This document shows positions 8,451 through 61,080 of a stretch of 64,000 nt of DNA, piece after piece. The notes beneath the pieces are model-generated. The model was not told the origin of the DNA. It saw nothing but the letters and a program-made list of their open reading frames with translations, and did no database searches. Numbering within the stretch: position 1 is the first letter of the stretch; each line of letters opens with the position of its first letter. Source of the DNA: Magnolia sinica (lineage: Eukaryota > Streptophyta > Magnoliopsida > Magnoliales > Magnoliaceae); assembly GCF_029962835.1 (NCBI RefSeq), contig NC_080590.1, positions 67,729,501 through 67,793,500 of the forward strand. The letters are read 5' to 3'. A program made the position numbers and the translations under genes.

Positions 8451-8899
8451 GTGTAATTCAAATTAATTAAAATGTGTTATTTTTGCATGCTTTAGTTTTT
8501 TTTTTTTTTTACAAAAATTTTGAAAATTTTTAAATAAAATTTATTTTTTAGTGTGTCACGACCTGTCGAGCACGTACTCGACCAATCGTGGAGCACGGGT
8601 GGGTGTCTTAAAAGGGGGAAAACACTTTATTTCTTCATTTACTTCATCTTCCTCATCGGGCCCTCTCTTGACTTGTCGAACCCATCATCATAGGATCATT
8701 GTAAGTGCTTCATTTTCAATTTCCTTTTAGATTTGGGTTATTGTATGCTTGTTTTGAAACATTTTGTAGTTGATTTGGGTTTTCCATTCCGTTTTTAAGG
8801 GTTTTAACTATAAAATCTTATCTCCTTGAAACCCATCCTCCATTTTTTTCATTCTCTTTATTGCTATCATCCAATGGAATTCGATCTAAAAGAAAGCTT
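8451..8899 (+). other. Spacer between pol and env-like region, outer SIRE
   Basis: A/T-rich sequence with a T run near 8497-8511 is followed by GTCGAGCACG/CTCGACCAATCGTGG-type palindromic words near 8565-8600, the same word class that fills the SIRE LTRs. The inner SIRE has matching words at 27903-27950 in the equivalent place. No protein domain is seen. Confidence 0.6.
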
Positions 8900-16089: not shown

Positions 16090-18289
16090 TATAAGTGTCG
16101 TGATGTATAAAGCACCCTTAGTTGTCAATTTTCGATGAGATAAAACAATCTAGAGTGTGACTTATTCATGTGATGGAAAGTTCACCTTCAAGTGAAGCAA
16201 GATGGAAAGTTCATCTTCAAGTGAAGCAAGATGGAAAGTTCACCTTCAAGATCATCATTTGAAGTTTGAAAGTGCAAGACATGAAGATAGTACTACAAGT
16301 TTGAGATCTTCCTCTACTTCAAGTTCAAAGATCAAGCTACTATTTTAAGCTCACTTCAAGTAGAAGATCTACTGAAAGCTACTGAAGATTCAAGTAGTAT
16401 CTTCGATGTCCAATATTTCAGGTATAAGGGACCTTAGAAAGACCCTCGGCTTGGGTCCTTTCTTATGCAAATTATTCATGGGTTTTTATACTTTGGTTAG
16501 GCTTAAATTTGACTAGTCCAAGCCTAAGTTCAACTAGTCCAGGCTTTGGTTTGACTAGTCTAAGATTCAAACTCAAATTCAGAGTTTTTCTGGTAGTTAC
16601 TCGACCAGTCGAGTACCCTACTCAACCAATCGTGGACTGTCACGCCCCAAACTCGGAAAACGGGCTCACAAAATTTTCGATCGCCAAATCCGGTGCCGAC
16701 AGTCTCCGTAGTACCCCATTCTCTGCTCCCAGCGTCCAAACGCCAGATTCCAATCCTGGGATCCTACAAGGCGGATTTTCTAATGTACATTTAACTCGTA
16801 ATTAGTATAACCACAAGTTTACCCAAATCATAAAGGCAACATCATCAACACATATCCACTAATATAAATATTTGAATACAATGCTGAAAGGGAAATACAT
16901 ATGTCAAAAATCAAAGCTCTAGAAGTCCGTTGCATGCTTTAAGCTCAACGCTGCTGCGACCTAACGCCACCTGCACGCATCTATCGTGCATAAGCTTATA
17001 GAAAGCTTAGAGGGTGGTGAAAGGGTATGCGCAAGATAAGTGCCAAGTATACAATACAATGCCATAAATCATAGAATATCGAAAATACTGGTAAGTTCAT
17101 GGATCATACGATATCAGAGTAAGCGAAAACACTGACAAGTCCACAAATATAATCAACCATACCAAGGCTATACGATGCAAGAACATAAGAAGTTAAATAT
17201 TAGATGCCGATGATACAATACAATATACAAATCCTGATGAGTCCACGCATACCGGAATGTGCAATATGCAGTGTGAAAGAAATGACCAAGCTAGAGCGTG
17301 AAGTCGAGATGATAGTACGTAGTATCGCAAGCTGTGGAGTTCATCATAAGGGATTCCTATCCATACTGGCCCATACCGAGTTTGGATAGCTGAACACAAT
17401 GTGGTAAAACCCTGACCTCAGGTTAGTCACGCGCCCAATCGAAATCCTGACCATGTGAAGGTACACGTAACAAATAGTTGCGCACCATTAGCCCGAGTGG
17501 ATAGTGAATAAATGAATGAATGAGTATGCAATTCATGCTCAATAAGTCCACATATCAGTACGGTTCCTCTTTGGGGAATCACCGGGGTCTATTACACTCT
17601 AAACCAGATTGTCGCCCCATCGTGCACAACAAGGTGAGTGGAAGAGAGCTCATTATCTGCCTACTAATATCGGGTACAGCTCATCGATAGCGGACTCATT
17701 CCTCAAGCTGGTCAGACTCAGCCTAGCATTGCCCCTCCTCTTGGGCAGGTAAGGACGTACCCCTTTCAACTAGCCACGACACAGTGGGAGATGTGGCCTA
17801 ACGGTATACGGCCCTCAAGCACTTATGCATCCACTTAGTCTAGACGTTGGAGCAACCTCTAGAACCAAGAGGGTTCTGGGACTTTCACCCAGGGATATCT
17901 ATAACACCCCATATAGAACAGATTTTTGGTGTCCCATCTAGCATCTACGATATGCCTGTAGAGGCTACGGCCCTAATGTCGCTAGGGCGTACAGTAATCA
18001 CAACACACAATGCAAGATACATGAGTCATACAATCCAGTCATGCATTAATCCTGTGCATACCGTATGCTCGTGTGAGATAATCTCCGCCTATCTGGGAGT
18101 CTCATAACAACCGGTACTATGACATATGCAATGGTCAATCATATCTTATAACAAATATGCAGATGATGTGTATAGGCATGTATCATGATGCTATGCTATC
18201 ACATACTCATAATCGGTATCAATAACTGGTATCAACAATCGACCTCGATAATGTGGACATTTAACCAACATTGCCCCCAAGGAATGGCC

Positions 18290-19520
18290 CACAAAGAGCC
18301 TAACATATAGTGGACCCATGACCTCATATAAGGGCCAAATATACAACACCATGGGCCTCACTCAAGAGCTTAATACACATCACGATGGGCCTTCACATGG
18401 GCCTAACATACATAACAATGGACTCCATCGCCTGGCCCTCAAATGCATCACAATGGGCCTCATCATATAGGCCTCATATACATCACATTAGGCCTTAAAC
18501 ACGGGCTGAATACACATCACAACGGGCCTCAAATATAAGCCGCATATACATCACATTGGGCCTCAAACATGGGCCGAATGCACATCACAATGGGCCTCAA
18601 ATACAAGCCACATATGCATCTCATTGGGCCATGACAATCGAAATCGGCATCGACAATCAGAATCGGTATCGACAATCAGAATCGGTATCAACAATCAGAA
18701 TCGGCCTCGATAATCGACCTTGACAATCGGAATTGGAATCGACTTCAACAATCGGCCTCGACAATCGGAATTGGAATCGGCCTCAACAATCGACCTCGAT
18801 AATCGGAATTAGAATCGGCGAAAACAATTGGCCTCGACAATCGGAATCGACAATCGAAATTGGCCTCAACAATCAAAATTGGAATAGGAATTGGCCTCAA
18901 CAACCGGCCTCGACAATCAGAATCGGTATCGACAATCGGAATCAGCTTTGATAATCAGAATCGACCTCGACAATCGGCCTAAGGGAAGGTCACAATAAGG
19001 ACATTTAACCATCATTGCCCATTAATGTGGACATTTAACCAACATTGCTCCCAAGGAGTAGCCCACACAGGGCTAAACATATAGTGGGCTCGTGGCCTCA
19101 CATAAGGGCCATATATACACATCAAGTGGGCCGCATCACATGGGCCTCTCACACATCACATCGAGCCTCGCCATCTGGGCCCCTATACATCACACTGGGC
19201 CTCACTCCTGAGCCACATATATAACTCAATGGGCTGCACATATGGGCCAAAAATACATTACAATGAGCCCTACCAAATGGGCCAGAAATACATCACAATG
19301 GGCCTTGCCCATGGGCCTCATATTCAAATAGGTGTGCCTCATCATATAGGCCGGGTATACGTCATATTGGGCCTCGAACATGTGCCATATATACATCACA
19401 TTGGGCCGCACATATGGGCCTCATATACAACGAGTGGGCCACACCATTGGGCCTCATATACATCGAGTGGACCACATCCACGGGCCACACTAATGGGTCT
19501 CATCATAGGGCCAAATACAA
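18290..19520. repeat. TGGGCC array in unit copy 3
   Basis: Degenerate modules of about 30-45 bases built on CATCACAATGGGCCTCA and ACATGGGCC. It is interrupted by the minisatellite at 18635-18985. Open frames here are repeat by-products. Confidence 0.85.
18635..18985. repeat. Minisatellite of TCGACAATCGGAAT-type units
   Basis: About 350 bases consist of variants of CGACAATCGGAATCGGTAT and CGGCCTCGACAATCGG with a basic period near 12-24 bases. It is absent from copies 1 and 2 at the equivalent place, so it probably expanded after copy 3 inserted or in its source. Confidence 0.9.
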
Positions 19521-20952: not shown

Positions 20953-23011
20953 TGTAAGTGCTATAGTTTATATCCCTATTTGTTGTCAAATTTGTAGTGC
21001 CAAAATCACTATTATACTCTGTTATATATAACTTGCATAAGTGAAGTTCTCTCAAGGATCAACATACATGTACAAGCTAAGCTCACATCAAGCAAAGCTC
21101 TCAAGTACAAGACTCAAGATCTTGAATGAAAGAACTGATCACAAGACAAGACTCTTGAATGCAAGAACTGCTCACAAGACTCAAGCTGAAAAGAAAAAGA
21201 AAGTACAAGGCAAGACTTAAGCTGAACTCAAGACTCAAGCTGAAACTCAAGCCACTTTCATGATTGAGCTACTTCAAGGTTTAGTCTACATCAAGACTTC
21301 AAGGCTCATTCTTCATGGTCTCTTGTTTCAATGTCCATACTTCATGATTGAGGTTTGTTTGACCATAGGATGACCTTAGAAGTAGGTCATTTCGGATACA
21401 TAAACCGAATGTTATTTTACATGTGATTGATCTGTTCTTCGACTAGTCTTAGGTCTGCTTCGACTAGTCCTAGACTTGCTTCGACCAGTCTAAGAAAATC
21501 CTCGACCAGTCGTGAGTTTGTTACAAATTACGGATAAAATCTGTTAGCCTTCGACTAGTCCAGAAATCTGTTCGACCAGTCGTAGGAGCAGTGTCGACTG
21601 ATCTTCGACCAATCGTAGAATCTACGACTCGAAGTCGGCCGAACTTTGCGGGACCTACGACCGATCGAAGGAGACCTACGACCGATCGTAGGTGACCTAC
21701 GACCGATCGTAGGAGGGCTACGACCGATCGTAGAAGGTCAAAGCATATCCCGCCGGATTTTTCAAATATATTTTTAGAGCTTCGACTAGTCGTAGAGCAC
21801 TCTAGACGATCGAAGACACGATCTTTTCACTTATAAATAGAGCACGAATCTCGAAGAAATCATCGATTTAATTATAGTATTCAAGCCAATCTTCGTCGAA
21901 CTTGAGAGATAATTTTGTGCTCCATCTAAGCTAAGTGTGCTTATTTAATATCTTCTTTCCTTAGCTTTATTTTAATTGATTTTGTTTCTTATATTCCAAT
22001 CCGATTTGAAAAGAGGAATTGTTATTCCCTTTCTTTGGAATCAAAATCAATTAAGGCAAGCCCTATTTGGTTTAATTTAAAATCTATTAGAATTAGAACC
22101 ATTGTAATCGAGTCTTGGACATTGAACTTGGACATTCAATCATCTACTTTGATTTGGTTCTACCGGTACAACGAAGAAGATATTCGTATTTTACATATTG
22201 TAAATTCCTTTCTATTATTTTGGTTTCTTTCAAGATTTGCGGAAAAATCTTGTTATATTGGTTATCCGAGGAAAGCCAGGAAAACTCGAAGTGGGGGTTT
22301 TTAATTGTGTAAGCCCACATACAAAGACACAATTGTAAGGGTTTTGGGTGAACCTGGGAAAACCTATCTTTAGTGAACGCTAATATCCCTGTGTGAGGAT
22401 ATTAGGAGTGGAGTAGCTTTTTGTGTGGCTGTTGTATAACAGTTGGTGAACACACAGGCAAACCACTATAAATCCCTTGAGTTGTGGTTGATTGATTTAT
22501 TCTTTTAATTATTTTTATTCTTTTTGTGGGATGTATGTATGGTGGTGAATGTTGTAATTATTTCAAGCTTTGTGAGAATGTTGTAATAGCTTAGAATTTA
22601 CTTTCTGCTATTCCTTTATAAGCTTGTTTTTCAATTTCATTTTGAAAGTTGTTCCAGCAAGGTTGCCCTGCCATTTTTATGGTGTATGGCTGTCCCTAGA
22701 ACAATACATCTTTAATTACAAGTTATTTCAATTCAGTTCATATTTGTTTTTGTATTCCTCTTCGATTTGAGACTTGATACAAAGACCTTTCTAGAAATAA
22801 GGTTGTCCTACCATAAACTCTGTTTTTGGTGTAAGGTTGTCCTTAGAATAACGTTTGTATCAACCTCTCAAGATCTGAATTTTGAGGTTGTTTTTCTTTC
22901 TTGCATTGTTATTTAATTTGGCTATCATTTTCTTTATTATTCCATTGTTATAAGTTTTTATTTGGCATTGTCCTATTCACCCCCTCTAGGACATATAGCT
23001 TGGCCTTTTCA
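20953..23011 (+). repeat. 5' LTR of inner SIRE
   Basis: Length 2,059 bases. The U3 part has palindromic words of the CTACGACCGATCGTAG and TTCGACTAGTCGTAG types (21430-21810), then a likely promoter: CTTATAAATAGAGCACG at 21831-21847 holds a TATA-like word. A C tract sits near the 3' end (22979-22984). Confidence 0.95.
21831..21842 (+). promoter_or_regulatory. LTR TATA box (probable)
   Basis: TTATAAATAGAG follows the palindromic array and precedes the likely R region. The same word occurs in the right LTR (about 29825), in the outer SIRE LTR (about 32421, CTATAAATAGAGG) and in the solo LTR at 58708, so it is conserved in position across SIRE LTRs. Confidence 0.65.
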
Positions 23012-23013
23012 AG

Positions 23014-23025
23014 TGGTATCGAGCC
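23014..23025 (+). other. Primer binding site, tRNA-Met type
   Basis: TGGTATCGAGCC, two bases after the LTR end, resembles the plant copia primer site TGGTATCAGAGC, complementary to initiator tRNA-Met. Confidence 0.8.
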
Positions 23026-23079
23026 TAATAGCTCCTTTTAATTCTTGGATTTAATTCTGAGCTAACGATTTAAGCTATT

Positions 23080-24150
23080 CGGATGTCAAATTTTGATAGC
23101 CTTTCATCACTAGGCCTCCACCCTTTGATGGCTCCAACTATGCTTATTGGAAAGCCGAATGAGGATCTTCCTCAAATCAATGGATGAAAATGTGTGGCAA
23201 GCCACGGTGGTGAATGGAATCCTCCTATCATGGAAGTTCTTGGGGTTGATGGTTCAAAGTCTATGAAAACCACACCATATTACCAATGGACCACCCTTGA
23301 GAAAAGTGAGAGTAGTGCAAATGCTAAAGCACTAAATGCAATTACTTACGCACTATCACCGGATGAGTTCAAAAGAATCATCTCTTGTGATCTGCAAAGC
23401 AAGCTTGGGATATATTAGAAATGACACACGAGGGTACTACAATTGTCGAAAAATCTAAAGTCCAACTCCTCACAACCAGATTTGAAGAAATTCATATGGA
23501 GGAAAATGAGATGTTTATGGACTTTTACACTAGATTGAATGACATTGTAAACTCAATGTGGGGTCTTGGCGATAAAATCCCAGAAAGTAAAGTATGTGCA
23601 AAAATATTACGCTCACTTCTTGAACGGTTCAATTCTAAAGTAACCGCAATCCAGGAACTTCGTGATACGGATAATATGAGGGTTGAAGAACTAGTTGGTT
23701 CTCTACAAACCTACGAGTTAAACTTTAAAGCTCCTAAAGGTAAATCTATCACTCTAAAATCTTCTAAATGTAGTTCAGAAGAAAATTCTGATTCAGAAGA
23801 TGACATGGCTCTTTTAGCTAAAAATTTTACAAAATTTTCAAAAGCAAGAAAAGAGTTGATTTTCAAAAATCAAATGACAAAAAGAAGTTTAGACCCAAAT
23901 CTCGAAAATCTTTGAAAGATAGTCAATGTTACAACTGTCTAGAATATGGGCACTTAGCAAATAGATGTCCTAAAAGGGACAAACCCAAGAAGAAGGGTAT
24001 GTTGGCTACATGGGATGAATCATCTGATTCTGAAGGTTCTTCTGAATCAGAAGATTCTGAAACCAAGTCGGGCAATGAGGTCAAAGCTCTTATGACTCTA
24101 GCCAAATTCACATTTTCAGATAATGACTCTACAAGTGAAGAAAATCAATA
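23080..24150 (+). pseudogene. Gag region of inner SIRE
   Basis: The frame starts with a copia gag (UBN2-type) region including PFDGSNYAYW-like and KSKVQLLTTRFEEIHMEE motifs. It is followed by an acidic/serine-rich stretch and a CCHC zinc knuckle, CYNCLEYGHLANRC (23927-23968, spacing C-X2-C-X4-H-X4-C). Gag packages the RNA into virus-like particles. It is broken. Confidence 0.9.
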
Positions 24151-24159
24151 GTGAATGTG

Positions 24160-25230
24160 AAAATGAAGATGATCTTCAAGATGCTTACAATGCCCTATAT
24201 AAGGAAAGTTGTAAAATTGTCAAACTTAAACTTCAAAAAGAAAAGTTTTCTAAACTCAAAAATTGTTTTGAATCGCTTGTTTTAGAAAAATCACAAATTT
24301 CAGATTGGTTTGAAAAATCAAAATACGATTTGGAATTTAAAAACTCTCAAATTGTTGATTTAAAATCTGAAATTGAGAAACTTAAAACTGAAGTATCTTC
24401 TCTTCTGAGTTTAAAGGACACATGGAAATATGCCCAAGGTGATCCAAAGTTAGAAAAACTTTTATCCGGATCAAGAAAATGTGGCGATCGATCCGGGTTG
24501 GGCTATGATAAAAATCAACCTCCTAAACAAAAGTATACTCCTCCTATGTTTGTTAAAGGAGAGTCCTCAAACTCAAAAGGGAAAAGTACTTATCAAGATT
24601 TTTCTAAAAATTCAAAAACTTTTCAAAAACCTAGAAATAACCATGTCAACTTTAATCCGAATCGAAATCCACTAGCTGAAAAGATAGTTGATTTACTCAA
24701 GGAGCTCTTAAAATCTAACTCTATAGGTCATTCCTACAAATATACACAAAAGAAGACCAACTATGTTCCTAAACCCAAAACAGTTATGAAATGGGTTCCT
24801 AAAGTTACCTGCTTGGTTGCTCACACTGCTTTCAAAGCAACAAGTCATTCAAAGTGGTACCTAGACAGTGGATGCTCCAGGCATATGACAGGTGACAAAG
24901 CTTTATTCACCGATCTGAAAGATATGACTGATGGTTCAGTCACATTTGGTGATGGTAGCAACTGCAAGATAATAGGCCAAGGTACGGTTCAACTTTTTAA
25001 TCTTCCTGTGTTTAAAAATGTTTTATACGTTGAAGGCCTAAAGCACAACTTGCTTAGTATATCACAAATATGTGATAATAACCATAATGTTCGGTTTTCT
25101 AATCAAAGCTGTGAGATATTAAATAATAAGGGTTCTGTAATATTAACTGGACGTAGAACGTCTGAAAATTGCTATATTATTAGTGAATCCAGCTCATCTA
25201 ATCAAACATGTTACATGGTCCATACAGACG
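24160..25230 (+). pseudogene. Gag C-terminal coil and protease region of inner SIRE
   Basis: A Lys/Glu-rich helical segment (about 24165-24420) looks like a coiled coil. Further on, WYLDSGCSRHMTGD (about 24855-24896) is the active-site region of copia aspartic protease with the DSG triad. The protease processes the polyprotein. Confidence 0.9.
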
Positions 25231-26320
25231 AGACCGATTTATGGCACAAACGTCTTGGACATGTACATTATCGAAATTTATATCGATTGAGCAAACGAGA
25301 ACTTGTAAGAGGTTTACCCAAACTTCGAAATTAGATAAAATATGTGGTGAGTGCCGGATAGGCAAACAAATAAAGAACTCACACAAAAGGTGAATTCAAA
25401 TACCACATCAAGACCACTCGAACTTCTCCACATGGACTGATAGGACCTACCATAACGGAAAGTCGTGGTGGTAAAAGTACATCTTGGTAATAGTTGATGA
25501 CTTTACGATTCACTTGGGTAGTCTTCTTAAGGGATAAATGAAACCCTTGAAGAAGTAAGAAAAGTTCTCAAAAGGATTCAAACTGAAAAATCTTCTCAAA
25601 TCAGTAAAATTCGTAGTGATCATGGATCCGAATTTGAGAATAGCAATTTTGAGAAGTTTCTATATCGACCAAGGAATATTACATGAATTCTCTGCTCCCA
25701 AAACTCCACAACAAAATGGAATTGTAGAAAGGAAGAATAGGGTGCTTCAAGAAATGGCTAATGTCATGTTGAATAGCATGAAGCTCTCTAAAAATCTTTG
25801 GTCTGAAGCAACACAGCTTGCTATATTATTAACCGAGTCTACACAAAAAAGATAATAATAAGACGGCTTACGAATTGTGGTTCAATAAAAAGCCTACTGT
25901 TAAATACTTTCGAGTTTTTGGCAGCAAGTGCTATATTTTACGTGATCATGAAAATTTGGGAAAGTTAGATACGAAGAGTGATGAAGGTATTTTTCTAGGA
26001 TACTCTTTAAACAGTCGAGCTTATAGGGTCCTGAACAAAAGGACTGGTGTGATTCAAGAATCCATCAATGTTGTCATTGATGATCATTTAAACACACCAA
26101 CTTCTAATTCAGATAATGATGAAGTACTAATCATTGATAAACCCGATACTTCATCAAATCAAACTGATTCTGAGTTGAGGACTGTTAAAGATCATCCAAC
26201 CACACAAATTCTTGGAAACCCTCTCACCGGTGTTCGCACCCGTAGACAACTTGAGGATATATGTAATTATGTATGTTTTACATCCCAAATTGAACCATCT
26301 AACGTAAAAGAAGCGCTTAC
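25230..26320 (+). pseudogene. Integrase region of inner SIRE
   Basis: LWHKRLGHVHYRNL opens the HHCC zinc-binding part, and HEFSAPKTPQQNGIVERKNR contains the catalytic glutamate region. The downstream VFGSKCYILRD and EGIFLGYSLNSRAYRV are typical copia integrase C-terminal motifs. It is broken. Confidence 0.9.
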
Positions 26321-27040
26321 TAATGAAGAACCGGATTGTTGCGATGCAAGATGAACTCAACCAATTCATAAGAAATGATGTTTGGTATCTCGTACCAAGA
26401 CCTAAAGATAAACACATCATTGGAACAAAATGGATTTTCAAAAATAAGTCGGATGAATGTGGAAATATAATTAGAAACAAGGCTAGACCGGTGGTACAAG
26501 GTTATACTCAAATTGAAGGGATTGATTTCGATGAAACCTTTGCACCGATAGCACGTCTTGAATCTATCGGACTATTTATATCCATTGCATGTTTTAAAAA
26601 GATAAAGATCTATCGGATGGATGTAAAAGTGCTTTTCTAAATGGCGATTTACATGAAGAAGTCTATGTTGAACAGCCAATGGGATTTGAAGATTCCAAAA
26701 ATACTGATTATGTGTATCGGCTTAAAAGGCACTTTATGGATTAAAACAAGCACCTAGGGCATGGTATGAGAAACTAACGAAATTTCTTTTAACTCATAAT
26801 TTTCAAATGGGATCTATTGATAAAACTCTGTTTGTTAAAAAACAAAATGATCATATCTCACTGGTACAGCTTTATGATGCTGAAATCATTTATGGATCAA
26901 CTTGTCCTGACTTGACTCCTGAGTTTGCAGATTTGATGAAATCACAGTTTGAAATGAGCATGGTTGGGGAATTGACTTATTTCCTTGGATTGCAAGTAAA
27001 GCAACAATCAAGGAATATTCTTTTCTCAATCTAAGTATGC
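26320..27040 (+). pseudogene. Reverse transcriptase region of inner SIRE
   Basis: Motifs [34 protein letters not shown] and FEMSMVGELTYFLGLQVKQ place it in the copia RVT_2 family. It copies element RNA to DNA. Several breaks are present. Confidence 0.9.
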
Positions 27041-27810
27041 CTTGAATATAATCAAGAGATTTGGATTTGAGAATGGCAAGAATTTCGATACTCCAATTAT
27101 TACTACCATGAAACTATCAAAAGACTCTAATGGTAAAAATATTGACTCAAAACTATATCAGAGTATGATTGGTAGTTTTTTATATATAACTGCTAGTAGA
27201 CATGATATTTCTCTAAGTGTTGGTATTTGTGCAAGATATCAATCTGATCCAAAAGAATCTCACTTGATTGCTGTCAAGCAAATTATTATATATGTCGCAT
27301 GTACTGTAAATCTTGGTCTCTGGTATCCTCATGAAACCAATGTCCAATTAGTTGGGTACTCGGACTGGGCTGGTGATCTAGATGATAGAAAATCAACCGG
27401 TGGTGGTTGTTTTTTATTTGAAATTGTCTAGTTTCCTGGTTTATTAATAAACAAAATTATTTTTATCTTTATACAGGTGAAGATGAGTATATTGCAGCTG
27501 GTAATGCATATACACAGCTTGTTTGGATGCAAAGAATGCTAAGTGATTATGGAATTAAACAGGATTCTATGTTATTACATTGTGATAATTCCAGTGCGAT
27601 AAATATTTCAAAAAATCCTATTCAGCATTCTCGTACTAAGCACATTGACATTAGATTTCATTATATAAGGGAATTAGTAGAAGAAAAAGTTATTCCTCTT
27701 GAATATATTCCTACTGAAAATCAACGTGCTAATATTTTCACAAAACCTCTTGATAAAAGTAGGTTCAAAAAGATGAAATTTGATCTTGGCATGTGCATTT
27801 TAAATTGATA
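27040..27810 (+). pseudogene. RNase H region of inner SIRE
   Basis: Motifs SMIGSFLYITASRHDI, GYSDWAGDLDDRKST, DNSSAINISKNPIQHSRT and FTKPLDKSRF mark the copia pol C-terminus. It corresponds to 7985-8450 in the outer SIRE. It is broken. Confidence 0.9.
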
Positions 27811-27864
27811 ATTTATGCCTTCTTGTATATTATTGTATATATTTGCTAGACTAAATTTCAATTT

Positions 27865-28503
27865 TTGTGTATATTGCAAGATATTGAATTTTTTGGGGTT
27901 TGTACGACCAGTCGTGAGTATGTCGTAGATACCCACGACCAGTCGTGGAGCAAGGGTTTCACTTCAAATGGTATCTATGCTATCTCAAATGGTACTCAGA
28001 TTTGTTTGCCTTCCTTAATCTGTCATTTCATTCTTCAGTTTCGACTCCATCCTGGTCATAGTGTCATTCCATTTGCATACTTTATGACTGTATTGGCTAC
28101 TCATATGTTAGTCGATATGCCTGTTGATGAAGCACCAATCCATCATCTGATCTTCAACAATACAAATATTAATAAGATGAAGTTGGATCTGCTTCCTGAA
28201 CAAGGTGGTGGTGTTGATGGTGGTCCTGAAGAAGCTGGTGTTGATATTAATATGGATGATATTTTTGAGGAACTGGATTCTGACTCTGCTAATGATCCAG
28301 ATTTTGTACCATCTGATGTTGATGCACGTCTGAGTGCATTAGAAGATAAAGTTGAGAATATTAATGTTAAGTTGGAGAACATGTCTGTTGCTCATGATTT
28401 GCAATTCAAATACATGCGCAAATACCTAAGGCGCTTGAACAAAGGCATGCACCAACTTGATCCTTCTATTCCTGCTCCATCTTCAAGTTCTAATTCTGAC
28501 TAG
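27865..28503 (+). pseudogene. Env-like gene of inner SIRE
   Basis: An open stretch after pol contains FRLHPGHSVIPFAYFMTV, INMDDIFEELDSDSANDPDF and LSALEDKVENINVKLENM, the last a likely coiled coil, and ends in a Ser-rich tail. It corresponds to 14967-15640 of the outer SIRE. It is shorter than the outer copy at its left. An extra gene after pol is a hallmark of the SIRE/Maximus lineage; its role is unknown. Confidence 0.75.
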
Positions 28504-28941
28504 TTTCTATGAGACTTTTGGTATGTAATAACTTTATTACTTTGCTCTTGTTTGATTGAGTTTGAGTTGGATTCTATGCTGGATATCTGTGATGCTATCT
28601 TGAGTATCTCTATGACTCTTTTGCTATACTCTATTTCCTCCTCATGTTTACTCTCATTCCTTTTTTTAGTTCTCCTTTGTCATCTTGTGACAAAAGGGGG
28701 AGAATGGTTTGTTGTTAATGTGATTGTGAGAGGAGTAGCATTGGTTATGTTACTCAGGGGGAGTGGGGTGTCAAGAAGAATATATGTTAATGTGATTGTG
28801 AGAGGAGTAGCTTGTTGAATGTTGATATGTTTGATCTTGTTGAATGTTGAAACTGGTTGAATGTTGAATGTTGAATATTGATTTGCATGTATTAACCGGT
28901 TGTTTTACTTTTGTTTGGTTATGTGTTTTGTCACTAATTTG
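28504..28941 (+). other. 3' untranslated region of inner SIRE
   Basis: T-rich sequence with extra polypurine-like words, AAAAGGGGGAGAATGG near 28692 and CTCAGGGGGAGTGGGG near 28753. A short direct repeat TATGTTAATGTGATTGTGAG / GTTGTTAATGTGATTGTGAG lies at 28711-28740 and 28785-28815. No gene is seen beyond the env-like frame. Confidence 0.6.
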
Positions 28942-28955
28942 ACAAAGGGGGAGAT
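28942..28955 (+). other. Polypurine tract, inner SIRE
   Basis: ACAAAGGGGGAGAT abuts the right LTR start at 28956. Confidence 0.9.
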
Positions 28956-31007
28956 TGTAAGTGCTATAGTTTATATCCCTGTTTGTTGTCAAATTTGTAG
29001 TGCCAAAATCACTATTATACTCTGTTATATATAACTTGCATAAGTGAAGTTCTCTCAAGGATCAACATACATGTACAAGCTAAGCTCACATCAAGCAAAG
29101 CTCTCAAGTACAAGACTCAAGATCTTGAATGAAAGAACTGATCACAAGACAAGACTCTTGAATGCAAGAACTGCTCACAAGACTCAAGCCGAAAAGAAAA
29201 AGAAAGTACAAGGCAAGACTCAAGTTGAACTTCAAGACTCAAGTGAAACTCAAGCCACTTTCATGATTGAGCTACTTCAAGGTTTAGTCTACATCAAGAC
29301 TTCAAGGCTCATTCTTCATGGTCTCTTGTTTCAATGTCCATACTTCATGATTGAGGTTTGTTTGACTATAGGATGACCTTAGAAGTAGGTCATTTCGGAT
29401 ACATAAACCGAATGTTATTTTACATGTGATTGGTCTTTTCTTCGACCAGTCTTAGTCTGCTTTGACTAGTCCTAGACTTGCTTCGACCGATCTAAGAAAT
29501 TCCTCGACCAATCGTAAGTTTGTTACATATTCCGGATAAACTGTTAGCCTTCGACTAGTCCAGAAATCCTTGACCGATCGTAGGAACAGTGTCGTCGATC
29601 TTCGACCGGTCGTAGAATCTACGACTCGAAGTCCCGCGAACCTTTGCGACCTACGACCGGTCGAAGGAAACCTACGACCGATCGTAGGTGACCTACGAGA
29701 TCGTAGGAGGGCTACGACCGATCGTAGAACGGTCAAAGCATATCCCCCGGATTTTTCAAATATCATTAGAGCTTCGACTAGTCGTAGAGCACTCTAGACC
29801 AGATAGAAGACCGATCTTTTCACTTATAAATAATGCACGCTCAGAGGAAATCATCGATTTAATTATAGTATTCAAGCCAATCTTCGTCGAACTTAGAGAT
29901 AATTTTGTGCTCCAACTAAGCTAAGTGTGATTATATAATATAATCTTTCCTTAGCTTTATTTTAATTGATTTTGTTTGTTATATTCAATCCGATTTGAAA
30001 AGAGTAATTGTTATTCCATTTATTTCGAATAAAAATCAATTAAGGCAATCCCTAATTGGTTTAATTTAAAATATATTATAATAAGAACCAAAGTAATCAA
30101 GTATTGGACATTGAACTTGGACATTCTACATTGATTTGGTTCTACCGGGCTGCTACAACGAAGAAGATATTCAGGTATTTTACATATTGTAAATTCCTTT
30201 CTATTATTTTGGTTTCTTTCAAGATTTGCCAGAAAAATCTTGTTATATTGGTTATCTGAGGAAAGCCAGGAAAACTCAGAAGTGGGGGTTTTTTTAATTG
30301 TGTAAGCCCACATACAAAGACACAATTGTAAGGGTTTTGGGTGAACCGGGGAAAACCTATCTTTAGTGAACGCTAATATCCCCTGTGTGAGGATATTAGG
30401 AGTGGAGTAGCTTTTTGTGTGGCTGTTGGATAACAGTTGGTGAACACACAGGCAAACCACTATAAATCCCTTGAGTTGTGGTTGATTGATTTATTCTTTT
30501 AATTATTTTTATTCTTTTTGTGGGATGTATGTATGGTGGTGAATGTTGTAATTATTTCAAGCTTTGTGAGAATGTTGTAATAGCTTAGAATTTACTTTCT
30601 GCTATTCCTTTATAAGCTTGTTTTTCAATTTCATTTTGAAAGTTGTTCCAGCAAGGTTGCCCTGCCATTTTTATGGTGTATGGCTGTCCCTAGAACAATA
30701 CATCTTTAATTACAAGTTATTTCAATTCAGTTCATATTTGTTTTTGTATTCCTCTTCGATTTGAGACTTGATACAAAGACCTTTCTAGAAATAAGGTTGT
30801 CCTACCATAAACTCTGTTTTTGGTGTAAGGTTGTCCTTAGAATAACGTTTGTATCAACCTCTCAAGATCTGAATTTTGAGGTTGTTTTTCTTTCCTGCAT
30901 TATTATTTAATTTGGCTATCATTTTCTTTATTATTCCGCTGTTATAAGTTTTTATTTGGCATTGTCCTATTCACCCCCCCTCTAGGACATATAGCTTGGC
31001 CTTTTCA
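28956..31007 (+). repeat. 3' LTR of inner SIRE
   Basis: Length 2,052 bases. It is nearly identical to the left LTR from its start to about 29440 and from about 30160 to its end. Differences, mostly small length changes, concentrate in the palindrome-rich middle. Confidence 0.95.
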
Positions 31008-31494: not shown

Positions 31495-33396
31495 AATGGT
31501 GAGATGGAGGGACCCCACCACTATGGGCCCCTCAATTATACAATGCATACATCAAGTGGGTCCCATATCAAGTGGGCCCTAAGAATTGAAATCAATGGAT
31601 CACCCACCTATTGGCCTCCTTCTTGGTCCGATGGAACGCCGAACTCCTTGGCTTCAATCTTGATGAAAGATGATGAAAAATGGAGGGTTGAGATGGGAGA
31701 TGAAAGGGTAGGAAGTGGCCACACTAAAGCTACTCTCATGGAGTTCTCTTGCTTGAACGTTGGGTTGCTTAGGATTTGCTTGAAAATGGAGAAAATGAGA
31801 GAGAGAAGATGGGATGTAAAGAGAGAGAGGGATGGGTGAGTAAGTGATGGGTGATGTGTACTTGACATGTAAGGGATGGGTTATAAGAGAGTTAACTTTG
31901 GGGATGGTGTTGTACTTGACATGATATGATATGGTACTTGATTGATTGATGTGACTGATGGGACATTCTCTTGGGCTTTGCAACGCGCAATGTTTTCCTC
32001 GAACTGAACGTGGGCGCACATCTCCCGACCCGGGTATCGCCTCGATGCACGAGACACGACGTCGAAATTGCTGCGACGATGCGGTCGTAAGGGTACAAGT
32101 TTCGATTCGAGCCGACTCTAATATATGGGACATGACTCAGGATCGCGCACAAATGCTGATAACAGATAGTGGGTCACCGGAATTCGACCGGGAAGACCGC
32201 GGAAGCCTACGGAATGGTACGGTCTAGGATACAGGTCTCACATGGACACCTGCTCGACCAGTCATGGGGACCTCAACTTGAACTCTAACAACCTTTTTCA
32301 TACTCCCTCGACCAGTTGAGCAGGCCACTCCACCAGTCGAAGGTTGATTTTATCCGATCGCGCCAAAAAATTTAAAATTTGGTTGGTTCTTAGACTAGTT
32401 GAAGGAACCATTTTTCAACCTATAAATAGAGGTCTTTTCTCATTCCAAATCATTTAGAAAAGGCACAAAAATCCTCCACTTGGAGAGAAAAATCCCCGTC
32501 ATTATCAAGATATAGTCCAGTAATTTTAGATCCTTTAATAGCTTATTTGGTTTTGTAATTCCTTGATCTCTGTTTTGTGAATCTGATTTTTTAAAGAGAG
32601 TTTTTTTTTTTTTTACTCTACCTTGTGAGATCTAAGGAATTCAAACAAATAGCCTAAGGTTTGATATAATTCAAAATTTGTTTAGAACCTAAAACCCTTG
32701 ATTATATTTATTGGACATTGAACATCTATACATCAATCGAAGCAGTTTTACGGGCTACATCAAATCTTCAAGAAGAAGATAAGTACTCTTTGTTTATTTA
32801 TTTTTAGTTTTTAAGATAAGCCAGAAAATCTCTGTATTGGTTTTGACTGAGATCAGCTAGAAAATCTCAGCGTAGGGTTTTGATTGTGATAGCCCATTTG
32901 AAAACACAACTGTATAGGTTTTAAGATGAACCTGAGAAAACCTTATTTTATAGCAAATGCCAATATCACAAGGGTTGTGATTATTGGGAGTTGAGTAGGT
33001 GTGGCTGTTTGAGAACAGTTGGTGTACACACTGAACCACTATAACTCTTGGTGTTTTGTGGTGAATGATGTATGTGATGGATGTGTATTGAATGTTTATA
33101 ATCTTTTCATGTACATGTGGTGAATACTTGTAATAGATAGCTTCCTTCCTTTGCCTCTTGTTTTAGTTTGCGATCTTGATCCTTACTGCGTTCAAGAAAT
33201 CAGGTTGTCCTACCTAAAATATTTGTTTTTGGTGTAAGGTTGTCCTTTGAACAAGGTTTGAATTTCTCAATACTATTACAATTGAGATCTCTGATTGATT
33301 CAGTTTTATTTAGTATTTTAGTTCATTATTTTTTAATTTGGCATAGTCCTATTCACCCCCCTCCCCCCTTCTAGGACTGAGAGCTCACCCTTTTCA

Positions 33397-55844: not shown

Positions 55845-57469
55845 TGAAAAGGAGAACTTAAGATGTCCTTGGGGGGGGGGGGGGGGGGGTGAATAAGGCA
55901 ATGTCAAATAATTGAAACAAGTGCTGAATATGTAAATAAAACAAAGATCTCAATTACTTGAATATTGAAACATTGATTCCAAATAACTCGTATGACAACC
56001 TTCACCTAAAGTTTTAGGCAGGACAACCTTATTTCATGAATTTCTTTAAAATAAAAACCTCTAACTTGTAAGAGTAAATAAAAGAATTACAATATTCACC
56101 ACACAACTGAAATTAAATACATTCAATCCACCACAAATAAAATAAAAGTATTCATCACATGGCAGAAAGAATTATAGTCGTTCTGTGCTTTAAAAACAGC
56201 CACACCTACTCCACTCCAAAAATTACTTCCTTCATAATTTTGGCTTTCACTATGAAAAGGTTTTCACAGGGTCACCTTAATAACATGATACAATTTCTTA
56301 TGATTTTCATGGGCTATCACAATAAAAACCCAAACTGATTTTACCAAGTTATCTCAGACAAAACCTAAACTGAGATTTTCATAGGAGATCTCAGACAAAA
56401 CATAAAAAGAGTTATAGAAGGTATACTTATCTTCACCGTAGAAGACGTAGGAGAAACTTGTAGTAGAAGGACCTCTTTCTTGAATATAAATGGTTCCGTG
56501 TTCAGGTAGATAGAAAGGGTCTAGGGTTCTATTGATTTTAATTATGTTGAACCCAAAAAGCTACTTAATTCAATTCTCTTCGATCTCAAAGAGGAGTATA
56601 ATTTACCCTCTTAGATTAAACTTGAAAGATTTGAGACTAAAGGGAATTGAAAAAGCTATTTAAAACAAATTATAAATACCGTCCAATAGCTTGCTAATAA
56701 CTTGAGCTTTTTTCTTTCTTGCATAAGAATTCTGATAATTAACTTGTATAATTCTGAATGAGAGAATAACTCAATTTATAGGCAAAGAAGTTAGAACTTC
56801 AGTTAACCTGAGATAGGCTTCGACTAGCCTAAGTTCAGTGGATTCGGTCTAACGGATTTCAGATTGCGTGGGATAAGAATTATCCAAAATTCGGCTGGCC
56901 CGAGGTTAACTTCAGCTGGCTGAACAGTACAATTCAGCTAACCGAATTTGACCTTCGGCTGACTGAATTCCAAAAGTTGATGTTGCTAGAATTTGACCCA
57001 AACTTTCTCGGGCCAACCAAATTTCAAGTTTGGGCTAACTGAACCAAAAGTTGGGCTAGTTGAATTTGCAACAAAAGTTTGTTATTGCTTCGGGCTTAAA
57101 GTTGAGCTGGCCGAAGAAGCTATGCTAGCCAAACCAAAAGTTAGGCTGGCCAAATTCTAGGCAAAACAAGTGAAAAAATCCATATTTAAACAATTTTGAA
57201 AGCACCTAATCCGAAGGTCTTTTTAAGGTTTTATACCACCTGAGATATATTAAATATCTGATTCTTTTTTAGCTTGAGCTTAGTCTCTGACTGTATCTTA
57301 AATTTGAGCTCGATCTTTTCTTGAACATTAGTCGATCTTGAGCTTGATCTTTTCTTGAACATAGATCGATCTTGAGCTTGATAGACCGATCTTTGAAGAT
57401 CTACTTTGAAGTGGTTTTGTCTTTACGAAATTTGACAACTTATGTGTGCTTAACATCCTAGCACTTACA
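55845..57469 (-). mobile_element. Solo SIRE-type LTR, minus strand
   Basis: 1,625 bases. On the minus strand it starts TGTAAGTGCTAGG and ends CCTTTTCA. Perfect target duplications GAATG lie at 55840-55844 and 57470-57474. Palindromic words here are of the TTCAGCTGGCTGAA type (56810-57170). A run of 19 G (55871-55889) marks the C-tract near the LTR end. There is no interior. Confidence 0.9.
55871..55889. repeat. G19 homopolymer
   Basis: An expanded form of the 5-8-base C tract present near the 3' end of the other SIRE LTRs. Confidence 0.9.
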
Positions 57470-57474
57470 GAATG

Positions 57475-57934: not shown

Positions 57935-59455
57935 TGTAAATGCTGTTGTGAAAATCTAGCACCCATAGTACTGTCAAATTTATTGTGCCAAACCATTTAG
58001 TATTTGCATTATGTTTTGAGTTGAAGTGGTCAGGTTCATGCATTTTAAAGTTGTCTACATCTTCATCGAACTTGCTTACATCTTCAAGTTGAAGTGAAGC
58101 GTGTTAAAGTTCATGTTTTCAAGATTAAATTCAAGAACTCAAGTTCAAGTTTGAAGTTCAACTACCGTACACTAAAGACTTAAGAACTCAAGCGTAACTC
58201 AAGCTCAAGTTTAAGAGATCGAACTCAAGCTTCAAGTATCACAAGATATCAAGATTCGGAAGCGAATGATGTTTTATTTGTTCCCACTTACAAACAGGTT
58301 TGGATGACCCTAGATTGACCCTAGATTGTGTCATATTCATTGCATATTCTTTGAGGGTCATTTCATATGTTTATAGGTCCTTTTCTCGACTAGTCTTAGA
58401 CCTTATTCGACTAGTCTAAGTACTGGCTCGACCAATTTAATAGTTTTCTCGACCAGTTCAAGGTTTGTTGCTATTTTTTGAAATTTTCTATTGGGCTCTC
58501 GACCAGTCCTGGAGACTGCTCGACCGGTCGTGCAGGCTCGACTCAAAGTCCAACAACATTTCTGGGTCTCACTCGACTAGTCGAGCAAGCCACTCGACCA
58601 GTCGAGTAACGGTCTTATCTTAGTGCACCAAAAATTTTGAAATTTTGTTGGTCCTTCGACTAGTCGAACCGACCCTTAGACCAGTCGAGTGAACAGTATT
58701 TTCACCTATAAATAGAGCATGAATTTCAAAGTTTATTCATTCATAAAAGCGAAATCAAGACACCACTCTAAGAGATAAGGTTGTGATATTTTTAAGCTAT
58801 ATTGTATTCATTTAATATTCTCTTTAATTAGCTTTTGTTATTTGATTTTGAGATCTTTATTCCAATCTTATATTGAGAAGGGATTTGAGTTTTCCTCTTT
58901 CTTGAGATTAAAATCAAATCAAGCTAGCCTAGGTTGATTTAATTAAAAATTATTTAGAACTAGAACATTTTCATCTATGAGACTAGACATTAAACATCTT
59001 CGTCTACATCGGATCGGTTCTACCGGACTTCTTCAAAGGAGAATTTTTAGATAAGTTATATTCTTTTTGGTTTTTAAGGTTGTACTAGAAAAATCTCTTT
59101 TTGGTTTGTCTGAGGTGATTCAGAAAATCTCAGTGTGGGGTTTTTGGAATTGTGTAACCCAATCAAAGACACAATTGTGAAGGTTTTAAGGTGAACCTTG
59201 GAAAACCTTTTTTCATAGTGAATGCTAATATCCCAAGGGAGTGGATATTAGGAGTGAAGTAGTTATGTGGCTGTTTTCTAACAGTTGGTGTACACACAAG
59301 CGAACCACTATAATTCTTGGAGTTGTGGTGGATGATTGAATGTGCTTATGTGTGTGAATGTTGTAATTAATTTTAAGCATTTATGGAGAATGTTGTAATT
59401 TATTTTATGCACTTGTGGGAATACTGTAATAACTTAGTTTATTTTATTTGCTATT

Positions 59456-60803
59456 TGTTGGGATTATATAGATTAATGTATTTCTGTATAATGTGGAAAC
59501 CGAAAAGTGCAAAATAATCAGAAATCAGGACAGGCTGAAGCACGTCTGAAACGCTGTCCTTAAAGCGTTATTTGCCCCTACTCAAGTGAATTGAGTATGC
59601 TGATAGGTTACAAGCAAACAGCTTCTAGGATACGAAGAGCCTGGTGTGGGTCTGCGTTCAGCAAACACGAAGGCCCACCAAATAGAACTCAATTACACGC
59701 TTTTTGGCAGTATTACAGTATAAAGGAAAAAATCCCAAAAGAAGAAGAAAAGAAGAGAAAAAGAGTTTTGACTTCTGCACAGGTCAGTTCAAATCTTCAG
59801 CCACTGGTTCAGTTGAACCGTTCTAGATCACACCGCTGGTCTGTTCTTCAAGCTAAGGTTTAAGCCTTGCTATGTTGCTGGAAACACTTGAATATATGAG
59901 TGGAGAAGGGCTGGCTGTCTCAGTTCGTATGGGTTTGCTGGAGTGAGTTGAGATTGTTTGGAAACCCATCCAGGTCCTCCTTTTATAGGCTATGATGGCT
60001 AGGGGGTTATGGTTTAAAAACTTAAATTCCATTAAGCCATTTCTGGCTATTAGAAAACTAGCCGTTTTATGGCCGTTTTCTGGCTGTTGTGCATGGACCA
60101 TTAAGCTGCTGCATGCTGACTGTTGTGAGACAACAGCTAGCCATTTTCTAGCTGTTGGGCTAGCCATGCAGCAGTTACAGCTGGACCCTGCACTAATGGC
60201 TCAGCTGTTACAGTTTATGCTGCAACAGCTCTTTTCAGTCCCTCTATTTATACTGAGAGATTTCTCTCTCAGTCCTTTAGTCTCTCTGCTAACCAGCCAC
60301 CCGCCATAGCCACTTAGTCGTACTGCGACTCGCGAGCCCTTTATTTATACTAAGAGATTTCTCTCTCAGTCCTTTAGTCTCTCTGCTAACTAGCCACCCG
60401 CCATAGCCACTTAGTCGCACCGCGACTCGCACACGTGCGAAGTGCAAAGTGCGCCACTAGCGCCTCTACAACCACACTGCCTCACATGCCCACGCCCTCG
60501 CACCGAGCTCGTGACCGAGACCGAGACCGAGACTGAGCCCGAGCTCGTGCCCGAGCGCGAGCGCGCGTGCGGGTGTTCCAGTGCTACGCATTGGAACACG
60601 CAAGGTCCATAGTCCACGGACTAGGTAGGTAAATGTTATAATACTCCACATCCTTCATATAAACCATAGGTTTTTCTCTTCTTTTTTCCATGTGGGACTA
60701 TTCCCAAAAACCTGCAGAAAAGTGTTTTTTCAAAACAACTTTTTATATTATATATTATTTTTATTATTAAAATATTTTTATTAAAATCAATATTTTTGCA
60801 ACA
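59456..60803. mobile_element. Solo LTR of an unassigned (probably copia) family
   Basis: 1,348 bases with ends TGTTGGGATT and TTTTGCAACA and perfect target duplications CTATT at 59451-59455 and 60804-60808. CCATGTGGGACTATTCCCA near 60688 is a word common in plant copia LTRs. There is no interior, primer site or coding. Orientation is probably plus. Confidence 0.8.
60245..60438. repeat. 97-base tandem duplication inside the solo LTR
   Basis: TATTTATACTGAGAGATTTC at 60245 and TATTTATACTAAGAGATTTC at 60342 start two 97-base units of high similarity. A GAGACC/GAGCCC hexamer-like run follows at 60507-60575. Confidence 0.9.
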
Positions 60804-61080
60804 CTATTTCCTTTGTCTCTCTATTAGTTTGAGTTTTTGATACTTACAAACGTTCTAATAAGGTTGTCCTGCCATAAGCCTTTGGTTTTTGGTGTTAAGT
60901 TGTCCTTAGAACTAAGTTTATATCAACCTCTCAATACTAGTACATTTGAGGTTGCTGTTTACTTGTACTTCTTTATTATTTAATTGTGCTATCATTCTTT
61001 ATATTCCGCATTTATTTTTTAATTTGGCATAGTCATATTCATCCCCCCTCTAGGACGTATAGATCGGCCTTTTCACGAAT

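Follow-up and report, generated by a model that had tools for sequence, protein, structure and literature searches.

The window, a stretch of 64,000 nucleotides from Magnolia sinica (contig NC_080590.1), contains a Sirevirus-type element of the Ty1/copia group, here called the inner element, on the plus strand, to which all features below belong unless stated otherwise. Its LTRs, at 20953..23011 (5') and 28956..31007 (3'), are 94.7% identical, and GGGTC at both outer ends of the element is a likely target-site duplication. The internal domain (23012..28955) was read as stop-to-stop pieces, of which separate ones match, above the Pfam cut-off, copia gag, zinc knuckle (CCHC), Pol beta-barrel, gag-pre-integrase and RVT_2 (PF14223, PF00098, PF22936, PF13976 and PF07727). 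An integrase match in an internal piece (PF13683) falls under the cut-off, and three of the eight internal pieces are without a Pfam match. A polypurine tract with an AT/TG attachment site (AT|TG) occupies 28947..28957, with GGGGGAGATTG at 28947, and the AAAGGGGGAGAT|TG directly before the 3' LTR matches the polypurine tract and AT/TG site given for Sireviruses in PMC2829016. The pattern leading from polypurine tract to LTR start, GGGGGAGATTGTAARTGC, has 4,596 matches in the 1.84 Gb genome, compared with 0 for a reversed control. Near the 3' ends of both inner LTRs lies a polyC-rich signal (CACCCCC..CTAGG), the C-rich stretch of the 5' LTR being followed by AGTGGTATC. The copia-type gag, CCHC and RVT_2 matches, the terminal polypurine tract with AT/TG, the polyC-rich signal, and a TATA box placed after a cluster of repeated motifs mark the inner element as Sirevirus-type.

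In the inner 5' LTR, the palindromes of U3 form an array that spans 21430..21823 with a period of 21. Its unit cores are at 21441, 21462, 21483, 21504, 21553, 21574, 21607, 21659, 21680, 21701, 21722 and 21784, with an additional decayed core near 21804, and the TATA box TATAAATA is located downstream at 21832..21839. In the 3' LTR the array covers approximately 29440-29815, followed by a TATA box at 29825. The inner element represents what we call family A, and LTRs of two further families are present. A family B LTR with the start TGTAAATGC extends over 57935..59455 as judged by BLAST match, with related sequence resuming at 60857-61075; its array of 10 units (58384..58690) has the last core at 58679 and the TATA box at 58707, an offset of 28 bp. 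On the minus strand, a solo LTR of family C (55877..57470, ends approximate) has an array at 56790..57150 with the core GGC-YA-GCC, of a decayed TTCGGC..GCCGAA type, and the last unit of this array lies 28 bp before TATAAAT at 56780. Remnant arrays are found in an older LTR (32250..32430, TATA at 32421) and in another old LTR (16504..16640), where TTTGACTAGTCCAAGCC-like units and CTCGACCAGTCGAG follow a 21-bp period; a further TATAAATA at 16863 belongs with the latter array. Two other tandem repeats were observed, namely an irregular array at 18633-18975 with a unit of approximately 19 bp (GACAATCAGAATCGGCATC), flanked by other short-period arrays, and a 97-bp repeat of two copies with 94% matches at 60240-60430, in the gap that separates the two parts of the family B LTR matched by BLAST.

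The palindromes of the window are the known Sirevirus "repeated motif" (RM) cluster. In PMC2829016 (Bousios et al. 2010), RMs are described from 13 Sireviruses, all of them palindromic, with element-specific sequence and positioned upstream of a conserved TATA box; a CGG-CCG core is present except in Tnd-1, and a role in regulation is suggested. Like those RMs, the arrays considered here have many dyad-symmetric units in the upper half of the LTR, before the TATA box, and extra copies near the linker between pol and env. Unlike them, families A and B have no CGG-CCG core, the core being CGAC-YA-GTCG, although Tnd-1 likewise lacks it according to the same text; family C does possess a CGG-CCG core, though not all units of its nine copies are full CGG..CCG. 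In the inner element, two extra palindromes of the same core (ACGACCAGTCGT) are located between pol and the 3' LTR (27904..27945). A decayed palindrome pair was also noted near 8560-8588 (within 8556-8590), beside sequence related to positions 27363-27809 of the inner element. Both pairs are placed like the RMs near the env position in PMC2829016. For maize Sireviruses, the palindrome region is described as fast-varying and small-RNA-attracting in PMC10760457 and PMC5311732, which cite Bousios 2016. Maize Opie and Ji share with the present elements a variable, palindrome-rich regulatory region of the LTR, but have the motif CACCGGACNNNGTCCGGTG (PMC10760457) and small-RNA data, whereas the array here is known from its sequence. 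The array and its variation between elements are already known from these three sources. A limited search of the Sirevirus literature did not find the step of 21 bp, the constant offset of 28 bp or a test of array-wide against unit-wide change.

Palindromic units and their register with the TATA box

All six palindrome strings quoted in a preliminary description of the window are present: CTACGACCGATCGTAG at 21676, 21697, 21718, 29672 and 29712, TTCGACTAGTCGTAG at 21781 and 29773, CTCGACTAGTCGAG at 58572, CTCGACCAGTCGAG at 16600 and 58593, TTCAGCTGGCTGAA at 56911 and TTCGGCTGACTGAA at 56954. The 6+2+6 geometry ascribed to them is not universal, as CTACGACCGATCGTAG is 6+4+6, TTCGACTAGTCGTAG is imperfect and TTCGGCTGACTGAA has four of six Watson-Crick pairs. 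The CTCGAC..GTCGAG strings, attributed to an outer LTR as well, occur in the 57935 LTR (and at 16600), and neither is found in the LTR remnant at 32250. As for the self-complementary arms, the palindromes are real, but many units are non-palindromic outside the 8-bp core. Among 467 exact-core units in 70 sampled LTRs, the most frequent 4+4 flank combination is CTTC..CTAG (38 units), in which the inner pairs are not complementary, compared with 26 units for CTTC/GAAG, 23 for CTAC/GTAG, 18 for CTTC/GTAG and 10 for CTAC/GAAG.

When scored against dinucleotide shuffles (perfect arm of 6, gap 0-4), inverted repeats in the U3 arrays are far above chance. The inner 5' LTR has 5 palindromes against 0.69±0.80, the inner 3' LTR 5 against 0.63±0.80 and the 57935 LTR 4 against 0.41±0.67, with as many in 0 of 300 shuffles in each case; for the solo LTR the count is 3 against 0.61±0.77 (8 of 300 shuffles), and with one mismatch permitted its 13 against 8.15±2.96 (21 of 300) is not significant at 0.05. 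The wider sample consisted of 3' LTRs picked irrespective of array content, namely 70 of the 4,596 matches, taken in order from the top of a listing of 100, all on one contig (C1) and not spread over the genome. At least three units are present in 64 of these 70 LTRs, and 10-13 units in 50, so that high-copy palindromic U3 units, which characterize RMs, do occur in most of the sample. The 64 arrays, which leave aside the six LTRs with fewer than three units, contain 208 perfect 6-bp-arm palindromes compared with 32.8±6.2 in shuffles, and 44 of them reach p<=0.05 as single arrays (100 shuffles per array).

The unit core is GAC-YA-GTC, or CGAC-YA-GTCG in families A and B, and GGC-YA-GCC in family C, as represented by the solo LTR. 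With at most one mismatch, 7-13 cores are found in 22 family A copies and 7-11 in 30 family B copies; the 22 A and 40 B copies that were read are the best matches to the query and so are close relatives. All nine family C copies have GGCYAGCC cores (at most one mismatch), 4-10 per copy and many of them after TTC. Neighbouring units are separated by exactly 21 bp in 341 of 610 instances in the 70 sampled LTRs, 21 bp is also the commonest spacing in the nine family C copies, and the pattern 21-21-21-49/50-21...62 is common to families A and B. Of 59 LTRs, 48 have a distance of exactly 28 bp from the start of the last core to TATAAAT, and four more have 49 bp (28+21), 11 of the 70 sampled LTRs being without a usable pair. 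For family C, the 28-bp offset comes from a single copy, the one in the window, where both the 21-bp and the 28-bp register are retained despite the GGC..GCC core. In LTR pairs of 55-80% identity among 27 LTRs, the fraction of 28-bp intervals with no net length change is 0.83 directly upstream of the TATA box, compared with 0.44 just downstream and 0.30 at the LTR start; in the subsequent intervals on the array side it is 0.70, 0.59 and 0.80, and then, farther than about 110 bp from the TATA box, 0.33-0.48. For the array as a whole, gap density is only slightly lower than in the flanks (4.27 against 5.3-5.5 per 100 bp, at 70-80% identity). A helical-phase statistic for the spacings other than 21 bp (R 0.39 at 10.5 bp, higher at 10.0) depends on ancestry and was discarded.

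Change of the arms between families

The preliminary description held that the arms change between copies while their pairing persists. Of 114 candidate arrays, 108 were aligned, comprising 64 from the 70 sampled LTRs, four of family A and 40 of family B. The alignment yielded 13 orthologous unit columns, and this claim holds beyond independence in seven of the 13 units and fails on tree simulation for the five upstream ones. In each of the seven downstream units, at least one of pairs 2-4 is matched more often than independence would give; for the last unit this is pair 2 alone. In the five upstream units such an excess is slight or absent, being small at unit 165 and at unit 219, and pair 1 is mostly mismatched in all five (0.01 to 0.31 paired). 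On a tree built from 209 spacer columns, with arms evolving independently in 1000 simulations, the seven units have 1089 of 1620 cells paired at pairs 2-4 against 758±81 simulated, a count reached in 0 of 1000 simulations, although the simulated standard deviation is too small because the units are not mutually independent. When the 35 combinations of unit and pair are tested singly in the seven units, two give p<0.05 (0.031 and 0.007). At pairs 2-4 of the five upstream units, no excess is present, with 731 of 1539 cells paired against 727±91.

In the seven units, pairing of a left arm with its partner at pairs 2, 3 and 4 amounts to 0.670, 0.843 and 0.520, compared with 0.662, 0.751 and 0.505 for non-partner arms, the right arms of other units in the same LTR. 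Since the partner has hardly any advantage at pairs 2 and 4, and a larger one at pair 3, the change is largely array-wide. Shuffling within LTRs reveals clear unit-specific pairing at pair 3 (449 of 530 against 385±6.6), a weaker effect at pair 4 (265 of 530 against 247±7.9) and none at pair 2 (360 of 530 against 366±6.1). The arm type belongs to the array largely, but not wholly. The same shuffle gives an excess for the five upstream units at pairs 2-4 (731 of 1539 against 687±11), which is absent from the tree simulation and may reflect unit-specific composition. In this way two look-alike readings are distinguished, pairing within a palindrome and the sharing of a half-site by the units of an array, and the latter covers most of the pairing observed here and is accompanied by the fixed register to the promoter.

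A predicted regulatory array and its alternatives

With a probability of roughly 0.58, we take the array to be a promoter-proximal cis-regulatory array of Sirevirus-type Ty1/copia elements, composed of predicted half-site pairs for a dimeric protein in register with the TATA box. The half-site pairs, with GAC-YA-GTC or GGC-YA-GCC as core, have two-fold symmetry, are in many cases separated by approximately two turns of DNA and keep a fixed TATA register. Each would be bound by a putative DNA-binding protein, dimeric or present in two copies, that recognises the two half-sites together. The preferred half-site would drift in an active lineage, and a change would spread, or be selected, along the array; such array-wide change would make the arms look "compensatory" between families. 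The fixed register to the TATA box favours DNA binding, and among the mechanisms offered in the preliminary description, a dimer-binding enhancer array is favoured by this register and by the array-wide half-site, the binding itself being a prediction. Retroviral LTRs such as that of HTLV-1 have 21-bp enhancer repeats and promoter-proximal protein sites in U3. The likeness, repeated U3 units approximately two turns apart, is an analogy only, as element and sequence are unrelated. Counting against the regulatory reading are the partly unit-specific pairing, the excess of pair-4 restorations on terminal branches over non-partners (given below), the gap density of the whole array, which is only slightly below that of the flanks, the fall in length protection at more than about 110 bp from the TATA box, and the 21-bp spacing, which could be a relic of tandem duplication.

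It is conceivable, if doubtful, that the array in addition records shifts in the DNA preference of the putative symmetric protein, arrays of about ten units having switched their half-site in both arms and over much of their length. The switches would be from GGC..GCC to GAC..GTC or the reverse, and would, just as tentatively, involve TTC..GAA, CTC..GAG, TAC..GTA and CAC..GTG. If true, the LTRs would preserve, like a series of fossils, the joint evolution of a regulator and the sites it binds, with unit identity and TATA register unchanged. Thousands of copies in one genome could reveal the turnover of promoter binding sites, and may help decide whether the Sirevirus palindromes have their role in transcription or as small-RNA-attracting features.

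A function in RNA seems to us improbable. The U3 of the 3' LTR would be part of the transcript, where the palindromes would fold and feed small-RNA silencing. The array does fold better than its shuffles (z -4.24 for the inner element and -4.51 for family B, 0 of 100 shuffles being as good), and small-RNA hotspots are reported to lie on maize LTR palindromes (Bousios 2016, as summarised in PMC10760457 and PMC5311732). However, the predicted folds pair units with one another, and the two-nucleotide centres cannot close a hairpin unless inner pairs are lost. When the seven pair positions are counted together for the seven units, G-T shows no excess over A-C (236 against 290), and it is rare in the three core pairs (47 against 129); G-T slightly exceeds A-C in the outer four pairs (189 against 161), clearly so at pair 3 (63 against 27), in counts whose cells are not independent and which, like the CpG counts given below, include more decayed cores than the tree simulation. 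The RNA hairpin of the preliminary description retains the good folding and the outer-pair G-T at pair 3, and lacks an overall wobble excess. Neither does an RNA function predict a fixed offset to the TATA box.

Neutral concerted evolution, in which slippage, unequal exchange or conversion would homogenise the units and match the arms through copying, is an equally unlikely account. It agrees with the nearly equal pairing of non-partner arms at pairs 2 and 4, and with a flank identity of 0.469 between units within one LTR compared with 0.39-0.40 between non-orthologous units of distant LTRs, a comparison that admitted units with up to two core mismatches, by which core conservation is inflated. 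On the other hand, orthologous units remain distinct across distant families (identity 0.53 against 0.40), and self-complementarity and the fixed register are unexplained by copying alone.

The last alternative is hairpin-templated correction inside each unit, by which pairing would be restored after mutation of one arm. Among 20 reciprocal sister pairs, most changes in the seven units affect a single arm, with 33 one-sided and 3 double changes at pair 1 (4.3 expected); double changes number 1 against 0.3 expected at pair 2, 1 against 0.6 at pair 3 and 4 against 2.3 at pair 4, and four in total keep the pairing. The compensatory differences for which the preliminary description suggested testing are found as a between-family excess in seven of 13 units; among sisters, mostly one arm has changed. 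Breaks outnumber restorations on terminal branches at pair 1 (101 against 14), pair 2 (39 against 5) and pair 3 (38 against 11). Correction would agree with the 19 double changes at terminal pair 1 (11.9 expected; 10 with pairing kept, against 5.3 for non-partners) and with the 41 restorations at terminal pair 4 (16.8 for non-partners), counts that leave room for some unit-level pairing. Internal branches have 3 double Watson-Crick switches at pair 2 and 5 at pair 3, where the expected numbers of double changes, whatever their type, are 0.5 and 0.2, but non-partner units give 3.2 and 3.3. In the orthologous units of family B, 1204 cells are paired compared with 1193.8±4.9 (53 of 2000 permutations as high), a small excess that may be explained by copy age, and double CpG decay left 18 compensated and 11 uncompensated units (p=0.26), with 13.7 and 9.7 for non-partner units. 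Given the mostly one-sided sister changes, the non-partner controls and the CpG decay without significant compensation, hairpin-templated correction is highly improbable.

The CCGATC state of family A units

The string CTACGACCGATCGTAG equals CTACGACCAGTCGTAG with AG changed to GA, a minority state that disrupts the innermost C-G pair. The change from CCAGTC to CCGATC is patchy, being found in seven of 22 family A copies at units that are otherwise CCAG, and it differs between the two LTRs of the inner element; the three CTAG units are preserved in all 66 cases from the family A copies. Base-calling errors can arise in methylated CHG context. The CHG context of the affected sites, together with private transversions in the 3' LTR, leads us to suspect an error of base calling or assembly. 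These transversions, mostly to A or T, form a cluster with a small deletion at 29924-30135 that is private among 22 aligned copies and looks like poor assembly quality; downstream of it, the inner 3' LTR has no private differences. That the CCGATC state is in part such an artefact has, in our judgement, somewhat less than an even chance, and would be compatible with the other explanations. CCGATC could also be a real young variant, and an artefact does not account for the array as such. In the 70 sampled LTRs, GACCGATC is present in 8 of 494 scanned cores, and six occurrences of GACTGATC represent a separate spacer site, five of them in near-identical context.
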